Source: a virus. Taken from it: a stretch of DNA of 33,927 nucleotides. The position numbers and the translations under genes were made by a program. Position 1 is the first letter of the stretch. Each line of letters opens with the position of its first letter. Positions 759-28,907 of the stretch are shown piece by piece. The stretch is taken from positions 1 through 33,927 of IMG/VR virus record IMGVR_UViG_3300037882_004424; one strand, 5' to 3'. A model generated the notes under the pieces. It was not told the DNA's origin, ran no database searches, and worked only from the letters and a program-made list of their open reading frames with translations.

Positions 759-1736
759 TTAAGCACACTGAATGTACTGCTCGGGCACCTGCTGACCATC
801 GGGTAGGATAAACTCACTGGACTCAGGGACGTATTGAATGGCCGATGTCGAGTACAGCTCCTTGGTGACGATGTGACGGCAGGTTGGCCGCGCTTTGATC
901 TGCTCGACGTGGCTGAGGGTCTTGGGGGTTGCATTCACAAATTCTTCCCAACCCTTACTTTCAATCCAATCCGACGCTTTGAGCGCATAGACTGGTTTGA
1001 GTTTGGCTTTACGACGAGACTCGCTGTAAGCGAACGCCCCTGCGTTGATGTCTTCGTAGGATGCGCCATCTTTGCGCGCTTGAACGTAAGCGGCTTTGGC
1101 TCGTTTGTCGGTGGCTTTGGGGTAATAGTCTTGAAAGGCTTGAAATTCGGACGCATAGGCATCTGCTTGGGGGTTCTTCTCTTTTTTCTCAAAACTTTTT
1201 TGAACACACACCGGTGCCTTGGGTGTGTTGAATGGTTGAGTAATATGATTATTGAATTGTTCACATTTCCTGATTTCAGGAACTCCATTTCCTGATTTTA
1301 GGAAATCGACTTCCTGAATATCGGAACTGGAAATGTCAGGGCTGTTCAAAACTGGTGCGTCCTCCATTTCCTGATTTCGGGAACTGGCATCAATAGCGGG
1401 TTCAGCGGGTTCTTGATTGTAAATCTCCCACCCTTTGATGGTGAAGGTGTACCAGCAGGTTTGATTATTCTTCTGCTTGTTATGGTTGCTTTTGATGATG
1501 ATGTCGTTATCAAGCAGTTTTTTGAGTATCGTTTCTATTTGCCCTTTCGACCAAAATGGAAAGCGGGTGCAAAACTGTTTCAGCGTATACCATACCCAGT
1601 AGTGACCATCGGTGTAGTTCTGCTCTTTGTCCATATTCATCTCTAAGCAGTACCCGATAAACTCCATCAAAATGGCTTGAGGAACATCTAAGGCTGACGC
1701 GATCTCGGGGTGGAATTGGTAGGTTTGACGTCTCAT
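759..1736 (-). CDS. Phage replication initiator, lambda O-like
   Basis: The 325-residue protein starts at ATG 1734-1736; an extension to 1910 is low-complexity and overlaps the OB-fold gene, so it is left out. The N-terminal ~110 residues look like a winged-helix domain of the type in phage O proteins (FHPEIASALDVPQAILMEF, later FWSKGQIETILKKLLDND). A Ser/Asp-rich linker (about residues 117-157) is encoded by DNA carrying four palindromic iterons. The C-terminal part has the replication-protein module F-x2-YYPKATDKRAKAAY ... YALKASDWIESKGWEEF, which parallels the YPRK ... P-x-TWLN-x-GRWED pattern common in phage initiators. The role is to bind the origin and recruit the host helicase. No helicase or loader gene follows, so host DnaB/DnaC-type functions are probably used. 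Confidence 0.8.
   Translation of the reverse strand: MRRQTYQFHPEIASALDVPQAILMEFIGYCLEMNMDKEQNYTDGHYWVWYTLKQFCTRFPFWSKGQIETILKKLLDNDIIIKSNHNKQKNNQTCWYTFTIKGWEIYNQEPAEPAIDASSRNQEMEDAPVLNSPDISSSDIQEVDFLKSGNGVPEIRKCEQFNNHITQPFNTPKAPVCVQKSFEKKEKNPQADAYASEFQAFQDYYPKATDKRAKAAYVQARKDGASYEDINAGAFAYSESRRKAKLKPVYALKASDWIESKGWEEFVNATPKTLSHVEQIKARPTCRHIVTKELYSTSAIQYVPESSEFILPDGQQVPEQYIQCA
1231..1383. other. Candidate replication origin: four palindromic iterons plus AT-rich block
   Basis: Four 16-bp near-palindromes share the frame TTCCTGA-N-N-GGAA: 1267-1282 (TTCCTGATTTCAGGAA, perfect), 1289-1304 (TTCCTGATTTTAGGAA), 1311-1326 (TTCCTGAATATCGGAA) and 1368-1383 (TTCCTGATTTCGGGAA). The first three are spaced exactly 22 bp, about two helical turns. 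An AT-rich stretch at 1231-1262 flanks them on one side. The arrangement, iterons plus an AT-rich unwinding region inside the initiator gene, is that of the lambda origin inside gene O. The origin function is inferred; the repeats are seen directly. Confidence 0.78.
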
Positions 1737-3428: not shown

Positions 3429-3457
3429 GTTATAACTACATGGTGACAAAATGACAC
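3429..3457 (-). promoter_or_regulatory. Candidate operator-controlled early promoter
   Basis: On the minus strand a TATAAC -10 (3429-3434) is separated by exactly 17 bp from GTGTCA (3452-3457), which matches 4 of 6 bases of the -35 consensus. The -35 lies inside the first operator (3441-3459), so bound repressor would block it. It would drive the small membrane genes and, past the terminator, the replication block. Confidence 0.55.
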
Positions 3458-3505
3458 CACGCGGTGACAAATCGACACCAAGCCGTGGTGACATTTTGTC
3501 ACCAC
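3441..3505. promoter_or_regulatory. Array of three related operators
   Basis: Three dyad sites share the half-site GGTGACA: 3441-3459 (TGGTGACAAAATGACACCA), 3463-3479 (GGTGACAAATCGACACC) and 3485-3505. The third is a perfect palindrome with 9-bp arms GTGGTGACA and TGTCACCAC around TTT. Centres are about 21 and 24 bp apart, so all sites sit on nearly the same helix face, as in the OR1-OR3 array of lambda. The sites graduate from imperfect next to the promoter to perfect furthest from it. The likely ligand is the HTH protein encoded just upstream (3521-3820). Confidence 0.8.
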
Positions 3506-3520
3506 TGAAAACAGGGCGTT

Positions 3521-3820
3521 TTAGCCACGTAAGACGACGGAAAGTTGAAGAATCTCTTTGGCGTCTTCTTTTAAGTCAAAGGACAAATCCACGCAGGCAA
3601 GCCCGAGCTTCTCGACAGGAATGGGACGCTCGCCCTTGAGCATTTCGCTGACGTTTTGCTTTTGACATCGCATGTACTTGGCTATCTTGGTCTGTGAAAT
3701 ATCCTTACTGTGGTGAAGATAATTCAGCGCATCGAGAGCCTGCTGTTGAAGCGCTTTTGCTTCTTCGTTGACGGTTGTCACGTCAGGCCGTCGAAAGAGT
3801 TTGCTAAGATCAAAGGGCAT
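3521..3820 (-). CDS. HTH transcription regulator (repressor/Cro-like), 99 aa
   Basis: Two ATGs are adjacent (3823 and 3820); the second is better spaced from AAGGAG. Residues ~38-72 form a lambda-repressor-type HTH: ISQTKIAKYMRCQKQNVSEMLKGERPIPVEKL, where QTKIAKYM is the first helix and QNVSEML the recognition helix. A short N-terminal helical stretch and a ~20-residue C-terminal tail complete it, so there is no room for a LexA-like cleavage domain. It is the only repressor-like protein near the triple operator, which begins 16 bases past its stop. It is encoded in the same direction as the genes it would control. Whether it is the lysogeny repressor or a Cro-like switch cannot be decided from sequence. 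Confidence 0.7.
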   Translation of the reverse strand: MPFDLSKLFRRPDVTTVNEEAKALQQQALDALNYLHHSKDISQTKIAKYMRCQKQNVSEMLKGERPIPVEKLGLACVDLSFDLKEDAKEILQLSVVLRG

Positions 3821-3843
3821 CATGATCTCCTTGTTGAGGGGTT

Positions 3844-4677: not shown

Positions 4678-5296
4678 GTGTCGACTCTCTTTCTTGGGTT
4701 GGGATGCCGTGAAGGGTATTCATGTCGTAAAACTGTTTGAGAAGATCAATGCTGACGGCCACAACTGGCCAAGCTCGACTCCCTGTTGAAATCAGAACTT
4801 TCTCAGGCGAGAGGGTACAGGATGCGTGACTGCCTCTTTTGTAGATAATGACGTTCTCATCTTTTACGGTGTACACGATCTTTAAAGAGAGATGTTTATT
4901 CTTTTCATGAATAAACGCAAGTGCCTTATCTATGTTTGAACCGTCGTAATACAAGTAGTCCCGTATGGCAGGAACCGCCGTATCGTCGCCTAAAAACGTA
5001 AAGAGGATGTCGTGATGCTCCCTATCGAACACACCTACCTTTGAAGCATCGTGAGAGATCACATAATTGCCGGGGTCGCAGGTGTGAAACTTTAGATCAT
5101 TGGGTTCTGCGAATTGAGGCATAGAAGACGTTCTGAAGATGAGGCAATCGGCTTCAAACCTTGATGTGTTACGAATCTCTGAAGATAAATAATCAATCTT
5201 ATGGTGTTCGCATTCTTGTTTGATGAAGGCAATCACCTCAGCTGTATTTTGGCCTGTCCAGCGCATACAGCGTAGTGGGTTAAGGGTGAGTGGCAT
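4664..5296 (-). CDS. Two-module early phage protein, 210 aa
   Basis: Internal comparison shows two divergent copies of one ~90-residue module. Copy 1 (residues ~10-103) has RWTGQNTAEVIAFIKQECEHH and later PGNYVISHDASKVGVFDREH. Copy 2 (~114-193) has YYDGSNIDKALAFIHEKN and later PEKVLISTGSRAWPVVAVS. The same module occurs once in the preceding 100-aa gene. The pattern, aromatic-x-G-x-N then a helix ending FI, followed by a GDYI-like strand and a final F-x-x-LY, resembles a widespread small phage protein family seen in many temperate phages, whose function is not known to me. The gene starts in a TAATG overlap with its relative upstream. Confidence 0.65.
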   Translation of the reverse strand: MPLTLNPLRCMRWTGQNTAEVIAFIKQECEHHKIDYLSSEIRNTSRFEADCLIFRTSSMPQFAEPNDLKFHTCDPGNYVISHDASKVGVFDREHHDILFTFLGDDTAVPAIRDYLYYDGSNIDKALAFIHEKNKHLSLKIVYTVKDENVIIYKRGSHASCTLSPEKVLISTGSRAWPVVAVSIDLLKQFYDMNTLHGIPTQERESTHETC

Positions 5297-27065: not shown

Positions 27066-28907
27066 TTATGCGCGAGCGTCCAGCACCACAAAGGGAGACA
27101 TTTTGAAACCGCTCGTCGCGTTGCGCGGCTTCAGGGAATCAGGCCACAACGATTGGCCACCCACACGCGAGCGAATCTTAAAGACCTGCTGGTCGCTTAA
27201 AAATTCCACGTGAATAGATTCCGACATCTGCGCCTGCTCTTTCATGACCAAACGGTACTGGGAGAGGTTCAGTAACATCAAATCGCCCTTGCCGCCTTTG
27301 GCCGAGGCTTGATCGGTAAAGATCACGGGCGTGTTGAAAATGGTCGCAAACGGTGCACCTGCAATCCCACCCGCAGGCATAAAGACGGGCTGGTTACCCA
27401 GTTGCAACTTTAGCAAATCCACAAACAGCTCGTCATTGGCAAGCCACACCATGTTAGCCGCGCCCTGTTTATACGCAGCCGCATACATTTTCGTGATGTT
27501 GTCGAGGACTACCGACCCAGCCGCTTGGCCTGACTCCTTGGCAATCGTCACGGTTGCTTTGGTATTGGTATTGAGAATACCTAAGGGCTTTCCAACGCCA
27601 TTACCGCGCAACACCGCTTCTTCAATCGCAAACTCCAGCGCAGAAGACATTTCCTGTTGTGCAAAGGCGGAAAGCGCACTCGCATCTTCTAGGATCTCTT
27701 CCGTGGCGTAAAAAACGCCACTCACCTTGGAAGCGCGGGTCTCCAAGCGAATAAGCTCAGGCTTGGTTTTATTGATGACACCGCCTTCTTCCGTCCACTC
27801 GACGGTCATACCACTAAAGGGTTTAGTGCTGCGGTCAAAATTGTTGCCCATGTTTTCAACAAGGCTGTTTTTGCCAACGCTCAACGGGATGCTAGCGCAG
27901 CGCGAAACGATTTGTCCTGTTTCGTAAATGTTTTTCATGATCCCTTGTGCAAATTCGGGTTGAAGCAAGAATCCGCCGTCCTCACCCGTGGCGGTATTCG
28001 CCCCCTGAATCGCACGGAGACGCTCATCCATGCCTAGCCCGCGTTGATGACGCGCAATCGCCTGCAACTGCTCACCCATGTTGCGAAATTGGCTTTTTAC
28101 TTGGGCAGGGGGTTGCAGGGGCAAGGTGTTATCCAAGGTCGTATTCCCCGCGGCATTACGCGCCAAAATGAAGGATTGCAAGTCTTCAACGCTTTTGTTT
28201 TCTTGAACAAAACGCATTGCATCGTCTAAGGCGTTGTGAGCTTTTCCAAGCTCCATCATCCGCAGTGTGCGGGCTTGCGCCTCTTGCAGTGCGCGTGTTT
28301 TTTCGGCTTCAGCAACGTCAGGTGTTAGGGTTGGGATCATCGGGTCAGGCTCCTTTTCAGCATCGGGGTGTGTTTCTTCAGAAGATAGTTCAGGGGGTAT
28401 AGGGCTATTATCAACTTTTTCTAAAGCGCGTCCTTTCCCAACAGTGGGGTCTGCAGCCACGCTCACCAAGCTGATTTCGTGAGGCTCCCAATCCGTGCAC
28501 AACGTATCCCCGTTTGCGGATTGAGACTCAGCATGAACGCGATAGCCGATGGATACTTGGTGAAGCACACCATCGAGCACTTGCTGCCAGCGCATTTCGG
28601 ATTCGGCATCTTTGGCAAAGCGCACAACCGCACGAAGCACTTTGTCCGCATCGAGTCGCACGCTTTCCACCACGCCAATCAAGGCGTTATAGTTGTGATT
28701 GAATAAAAGAGAGGCCTTATTTTTTAGGCGCTCTAGGCGCACATTTTCTGCGCCGTGCAACAAGATTTCGCTACCCATCCAGCTCGGCACGGGAAACTCG
28801 CTAGAACAGGCAATCTCAACGGTGCGCGCGTCGGTGTTGATGGTTCGCGTATCCAGTTGGCCAAGTTGACGTTGGCGCATGGTATCAGGAGAAGTCACGG
28901 CGGACAC
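27066..28907 (-). CDS. Fused HK97-type prohead protease and major capsid protein
   Basis: One 613-residue frame, starting at a GTG in a TAGTG overlap with the portal stop, joins two proteins that are separate in HK97. Residues ~25-165 are an HK97-family prohead protease with H71 in LLFNHNYNALIG and S119 in HQVSIGYRV. A charged helical linker (~185-285, KTRALQEAQARTLRMMELGK) is probably the scaffold/delta part. Residues ~290-613 are an HK97-fold capsid: ATGEDGGFLLQPEFAQGIMK, PFSGMTVEWTEEGGVINKTK, KVSGVFYATEEILEDASALS, AVLRGNGVGKPLGILNT, and a SESIHVEFLSDQQVFKIR end. The protease would cut itself free during maturation. Confidence 0.93.
   Translation of the reverse strand: MSAVTSPDTMRQRQLGQLDTRTINTDARTVEIACSSEFPVPSWMGSEILLHGAENVRLERLKNKASLLFNHNYNALIGVVESVRLDADKVLRAVVRFAKDAESEMRWQQVLDGVLHQVSIGYRVHAESQSANGDTLCTDWEPHEISLVSVAADPTVGKGRALEKVDNSPIPPELSSEETHPDAEKEPDPMIPTLTPDVAEAEKTRALQEAQARTLRMMELGKAHNALDDAMRFVQENKSVEDLQSFILARNAAGNTTLDNTLPLQPPAQVKSQFRNMGEQLQAIARHQRGLGMDERLRAIQGANTATGEDGGFLLQPEFAQGIMKNIYETGQIVSRCASIPLSVGKNSLVENMGNNFDRSTKPFSGMTVEWTEEGGVINKTKPELIRLETRASKVSGVFYATEEILEDASALSAFAQQEMSSALEFAIEEAVLRGNGVGKPLGILNTNTKATVTIAKESGQAAGSVVLDNITKMYAAAYKQGAANMVWLANDELFVDLLKLQLGNQPVFMPAGGIAGAPFATIFNTPVIFTDQASAKGGKGDLMLLNLSQYRLVMKEQAQMSESIHVEFLSDQQVFKIRSRVGGQSLWPDSLKPRNATSGFKMSPFVVLDARA

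Follow-up and report, generated by a model that had tools for sequence, protein, structure and literature searches.

Four palindromic repeats lie inside a phage gene for a replication initiation protein. It is very probable that the encoded protein binds them and that the segment holding them is the origin of replication. The gene was found in an IMG/VR virus record, IMGVR_UViG_3300037882_004424, which was analyzed in its entirety (33,927 bases; hereafter, the window). This reading is drawn from comparison: in related genes the iterons keep their place and spacing, their arms covary, the half-sites track residues 65 and 68 of the initiator, and the window fits the resulting rule. We consider it highly probable that positions 1231–1383 are a theta-type origin within the initiator gene, with palindromes bound by initiator dimers, an AT-rich block that is opened, and a C-terminal domain that recruits. 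The N-terminal winged helix would bind each palindrome as a dimer, one per 22-bp iteron (two helical turns) and all on one face of the helix, with residues 65 and 68 of the recognition helix reading bases 5 and 6 of the half-site. Once assembled, the complex would open the AT-rich block beside it; recruitment of a helicase or another part of the replisome would fall to the C-terminal domain. The plan itself is already known, and the window segment appears to be a real, functional-looking intragenic origin built on it.

The initiator gene and its iteron array

The features of the gene and of the segment within it are as follows.

759–1736, minus strand: initiator gene for a winged-helix replication initiation protein of 325 aa (phrog_11233 match and AlphaFold2 model)
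1407–1736, minus strand: N-terminal winged-helix DNA-binding domain, residues 1–110 (pLDDT mostly >90; fold matches)
1509–1547, minus strand: predicted recognition helix, residues 64–76, with covariation between the iteron half-site and residues 65 and 68
1173–1406, minus strand: linker, residues 111–188, predicted to be disordered (pLDDT about 40–60) and encoded by the iteron region
927–1172, minus strand: C-terminal helical domain, residues 189–270, candidate for replisome or helicase recruitment (pLDDT about 74–85 to residue 240, lower beyond)
1368–1383, plus strand: iteron copy TTCCTGATTTCGGGAA, first in gene order, 1 mismatch
1311–1326, plus strand: iteron copy TTCCTGAATATCGGAA, 3 mismatches
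1289–1304, plus strand: iteron copy TTCCTGATTTTAGGAA, 1 mismatch
1267–1282, plus strand: iteron copy TTCCTGATTTCAGGAA, last in gene order, a perfect palindrome with 7-bp arms and a 2-bp spacer
1231–1266, no strand: AT-rich block (25% GC) directly 3' of the iterons in gene sense, candidate unwinding element

The 325-aa protein was assigned by a PHROG profile search, in which residues 5–197 matched phrog_11233 ("replication initiation protein"; E 9.8e-21), as relatives of the protein also do. It also matched phrog_270, another replication initiation family, and phrog_678 ("replication initiation O-like"; E 1.1e-9). A Pfam search with the protein returned zero matches at E 0.1 and a PDB sequence search zero relatives; a weak PDB match to a ribosome biogenesis protein (E 0.43) was not taken as a relative. 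As a single query against viral and genome contigs the window protein also found zero relatives, and no close relative of the entire protein turned up in those searches. The AlphaFold2 model, built on a 61-sequence alignment, consists of a confident winged helix, a disordered linker, and a helical C-terminal domain that starts at residue 189. The top fold matches of the N-terminal domain were RepA_N initiators (4PQL, 4PTA, 5KBJ, and 4PT7; Z 9.1–10.0), with MarR-type domains less than 1 Z unit behind. The C-terminal domain had weak matches only, to phrog_2598 and phrog_9474, and the C-terminus showed zero similarity to that of one Oscillospiraceae relative.

When the whole 33.9-kb record was scanned for TTCCTGA-NN-TCAGGAA at up to 3 mismatches, the only matches were the four plus-strand copies listed above. 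All of them fall inside 117 bp, with start-to-start distances of 22, 22, and 57 bp; 1.28 such matches would be expected anywhere in a shuffled record. The copies sit at codons 118–157 of the minus-strand gene and use all three reading frames, so repetition at the protein level cannot account for the array. A motif-agnostic 22-mer repeat score gave 55 for the gene and a mean of 20.5 for synonymous-codon shuffles (maximum 47; 0 of 2000 reached 55). Three palindromes at 22-bp spacing scored 15/18, against 12.2 ± 0.8 in shuffles, none of 60 reaching 15. The adjoining block at 1231–1266 has 25% GC compared with 50% for the record, a value equaled or undercut by 147 of 33,892 windows of the scan. 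The array and its palindromes are thus confirmed as real, and both the four intragenic iterons described by the first-pass annotation (three at 22 bp, the first by coordinate perfect) and its AT-rich block were borne out.

Other parts of the record were also inspected. Gene 380–736, considered as a possible P-type helicase loader gene downstream of the initiator gene, had no meaningful match in Pfam and PHROG searches, and the record ends at position 1. A minus-strand ORF at 1–376 reads by eye like a small HTH regulator and runs off the left end, which may thus reflect a cut or a circular permutation of the record. Three further palindromes at 3442–3503 (GGTGACAAAATGACACC, GGTGACAAATCGACACC, and GGTGACATTTTGTCACC, spaced 21 and 24 bp as read by eye) lie directly downstream, in gene sense, of an HTH gene at 3521–3823 and resemble a triple repressor operator. 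One ORF of 613 aa at 27066–28907 resembles, again by eye, a prohead protease fused to a major capsid protein. A tRNA and Rfam search of the window returned zero matches.

Linker palindromes among relatives

Homologues were gathered by protein similarity alone, which makes the sample blind to DNA repeats. The earliest matches came from Lactobacillus, Listeria, Vibrio, and Flavobacterium phages. A repeat finder run on the replication genes of seven phages showed, in four of them, copies at 22–24-bp distances within this linker, the palindromic motif differing from phage to phage. We extended the viral list to 80 contigs with 87 genes. Most viral and prophage relatives carry palindromic iterons of their own in the same linker place and at 22-bp spacing, with a conserved A-tract between arms that differ and with an AT-rich block just downstream. 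A typical family array is ATTTGCCC-AAAA-GGGCAAAT-GG. Compared with these the window array is less regular, with a 57-bp gap separating the first copy in gene order from the second.

A whole-gene palindrome comb score was too weak for many single genes, and we therefore used a test anchored on a Pro-Ile-Pro codon triplet that follows the linker in 64 of the 87 genes; the window gene lacks this triplet. The anchor was picked after some arrays had been seen. Among the 47 anchored genes that were non-redundant (<85% identity over the 100 nt upstream), dyad centers peaked at -53, -20, -9, -31, and -42 relative to the anchor, where 3.3–3.6 of 6 pairs were complementary against a background of 1.56. 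These maxima form two interleaved 22-bp ladders, as expected where every 22-bp unit is itself symmetric. The same top center was recovered from 18 independent prophage genes of bacterial genomes (<70% identical to the viral set). The central AA was kept in 36–37 of the 47 genes while the arms varied. AT content reached its maximum of 77% at 10–40 nt past the anchor (gene mean 62%), which indicates that the order of iterons and AT-rich block is general in the family.

The two halves of each palindrome change together. Complementarity between half-sites was found at 56–60% of position pairs at centers -9, -31, and -53, compared with 37–41% when right halves were dealt to other genes (z 10.0, 8.8, and 7.9, respectively). 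The covariation persisted at a 60% identity cut (28 genes; z 7.1–7.7) and was absent at control centers. Selection thus acts on the palindrome itself even as the letters vary, which is the expectation for sites of a symmetric dimer. A search of relatives for spaced palindromes had been suggested at the outset, with loss of the palindromes beneath a conserved linker protein as the outcome that would count against an origin. The pattern found is the reverse: the palindromic layout is kept, and the linker protein and the motif both change.

Not every homologue has an evident array. A plasmid copy in Ligilactobacillus salivarius (L291:1159-2130) is among those without clear iterons, so the protein domain can occur without the array. 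This copy has a Phg_2220_C domain, an adjoining helicase gene, and a low-complexity linker, and the origin of that plasmid may lie outside the linker. The cleanest array in the family was seen in Oceanicola sp. S124 (L228), where three near-identical 22-bp units (GCTGGCCCAAAAGGGCCAAGGG) stand just before the Pro-Ile-Pro codons. Closely similar copies of the initiator gene, their linkers holding TTTGCCC-type palindromes, occur in many Rhodobacteraceae genomes (L270-L289), possibly as one widespread prophage family. Phg_2220_C, DnaB_2, DnaT, and DnaA_N domains were found among the C-termini of the 61 family members, and by this domain content the C-termini are exchangeable.

Searching viral contigs for the exact window motif as an array yielded one unrelated array (contig L002, IMGVR_UViG_3300048583_000551), and a looser triple TTCCTGA pattern yielded, apart from that contig, codon repeats and low-complexity sequence. 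The L002 array (4970–5115) repeats TTCCTGAGGTCGGGAAACAGG, which closely resembles the window motif, about seven times in 21-bp copies; it lies near a large ORF that resembles a P4-type primase/helicase, and a recognized O-like gene is absent nearby.

Recognition-helix residues, half-sites, and competing readings

We compared the columns of the N-terminal domain with half-site sequence across 66 training genes, the window included, after removing the effect of overall divergence. Residue 65 ranked first among the scanned columns (r 0.41, z 9.4) and residue 68 second (r 0.32, z 6.7); the two are one turn apart on the predicted recognition helix. Residue 65 explained 68% of the variance at half-site position 5, with the pairings Lys65-C5, Arg65-A5, and Asp65-G5, and residue 68 explained 47% at position 6, with Arg68-G6 and Glu68-C6. 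Chemistry was not among the inputs, and the pairings make chemical sense: Lys65 goes with C (G opposite), Asp65 with G (C opposite), Arg68 with G, and Glu68 with C.

These rules were then applied to a held-out set of 28 genes (<70% identical to the training set) from two scans with other query sequences. The residue-68 rule was well confirmed: 17 of 19 genes followed it, and so did 92 of 114 half-sites, where permutation gave a mean of 65 (z 3.8). The residue-65 rule was confirmed less sharply (66 of 114 half-sites, 13 of 19 genes; z 3.8), Arg65 pairing with either A or C. Position 3 also carried a signal for this rule, in 14 of 19 genes (z 2.3). Across all N-domain columns in this set, the top-ranking one was residue 65 for position 5 and residue 68 for position 6. 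Permutation tests model the tree only in part, and phylogeny was controlled by pairing 94 genes as disjoint closest relatives, a moderately significant test: changes at residue 68 accompanied changes at position 6 (p 0.019) and changes at 65 accompanied those at position 5 (p 0.011), while the crossed controls (65 with position 6, 68 with position 5) gave p 1. The window gene, part of the training set and not of the held-out one, encodes Glu68, and all 8 of its half-sites have C6 in agreement with the rule; its Gly65 is covered by no pairing rule.

The form of the sites would also suit transcription operators of the initiator or of a phage repressor, with replication beginning elsewhere. Palindromic sites for a winged-helix dimer are the usual form of an operator, and MarR-type repressors are among the top fold matches. 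We nevertheless consider this improbable, since the sites lie within the coding region about 350–470 bp past the start codon with no obvious promoter there, the protein matches replication initiation families, some relatives have helicase-loader-type C-termini, and an AT-rich block follows the array. It is more improbable still that another protein, such as a phage HTH regulator, binds the array and that the linker is merely a convenient site; further HTH proteins are encoded close by (2233–2745 and 3521–3823), but in the training and held-out sets alike the half-site varies with residues 65 and 68 of the initiator encoded by the same gene. Although low-complexity linkers do contain short repeats, an array due to chance or to protein-level repetition is statistically refuted by the synonymous shuffles, the use of three frames, and the family-wide spacing and covariation. 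On comparison of sequences, the residue tracking, taken with the place, the spacing, and the covariation of the arms, strongly supports the proposal of an intragenic origin with dimer-type palindromic iterons in the linker.

Relation to known replicons

In fold and iteron style the RepA_N initiators are a closer parallel than lambda O, although MarR-type domains come nearly as near in fold. RepA_N plasmids such as pSK41 and pTZ2162 have iterons in the central linker of rep that are semi-palindromic around an A-tract (PMC5703833, PMC7145576), and in pSK41 the four Rep boxes bound by the N-terminal domain lie mid-gene in rep, and the linker they encode is dispensable (PMC5703833). The initiators of pSK41, pTZ2162, and pLS32 (RepN) have an origin inside rep, as the window family probably does, and share with it a winged-helix N-terminal domain and a modular C-terminus; the RepA_N layout of semi-palindromic linker iterons around an A-tract in a rep-type gene is found in the window family as well. 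As to the DnaD-like or primase-interacting C-terminal domain of RepA_N proteins, the window C-terminus offers no more than its weak PHROG matches, and some of its relatives have the DnaB_2, DnaT, Phg_2220_C, or DnaA_N domains noted above. As a yardstick we used pLS32; its first CDS proved to be the wrong gene for rep, and the gene with the RepA_N domain was located by family search. That gene has GGTCAAATTGAACC-type palindromes 23–24 bp apart at about codons 155–170, the same layout as in the window family. The window family differs in being of phages rather than plasmids, in its strict 22-bp spacing, and in having an N-domain family of its own without a Pfam model. Pfam RepA_N (PF06970) gave the window protein no match at E 0.1 or E 10 and matched 0 of 61 family members at E 0.01.

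A precedent for an intragenic origin is oriLambda, in which iterons within the initiator gene are followed by an AT-rich tract (PMC7466680). The four annotated iterons of lambda O start at codons 117–139 with spacings of 20, 24, and 23 bp, and all show dyad symmetry about a core rich in A (TCCCTC-AAAAC-GAGGGA). Lambda O thus resembles the window in its mid-gene iterons and downstream AT-rich block, and the earlier label of a lambda-like origin holds for layout. Direct sequence homology was not detected: Pfam Phage_rep_O had zero matches to the window protein or the 61 members, and hhalign against the single lambda O sequence aligned nothing (probability 0.1%). The only bridge is phrog_678, which both proteins match, so a remote homology to lambda O is possible. 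No lambda P-like gene was recognizable in the stretch examined. Because neither Pfam family was matched and lambda O did not align, we claim membership in neither family for the window system, which probably works like both.

The RepA and origin of PLE, a Vibrio cholerae satellite, likewise combine a RepA_N-type domain with semi-palindromic iterons, and in that system the DNA-binding domain changes together with the origin, the two forming a swappable module (PMC8263062). The PLE origin is intergenic, unlike the probable origin of the window family, and the covariation described for it is at the level of the module and not of single residues. A literature search with limited coverage of subscription journals returned no account of iterons, and none of a residue-level code, for the present initiator family.

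The family-wide match between initiator and origin at the level of residues is of more interest than a single origin. We think it somewhat probable that this large, unnamed family of phage initiators is self-addressed, with residues 65 and 68 setting the specificity and the linker iterons carrying it. The N-terminal domain and origin would then form one cassette in front of exchangeable C-terminal domains that load the replisome, and the origin would be largely predictable from the protein across bacterial phyla. For most phages known only from metagenomes the origins are unmapped; in this family the origin and much of the binding-site sequence could be read from the initiator gene. With the two-residue rule, initiator-origin specificity, replicon compatibility, and the swapping of replication modules among phages become open to direct test.
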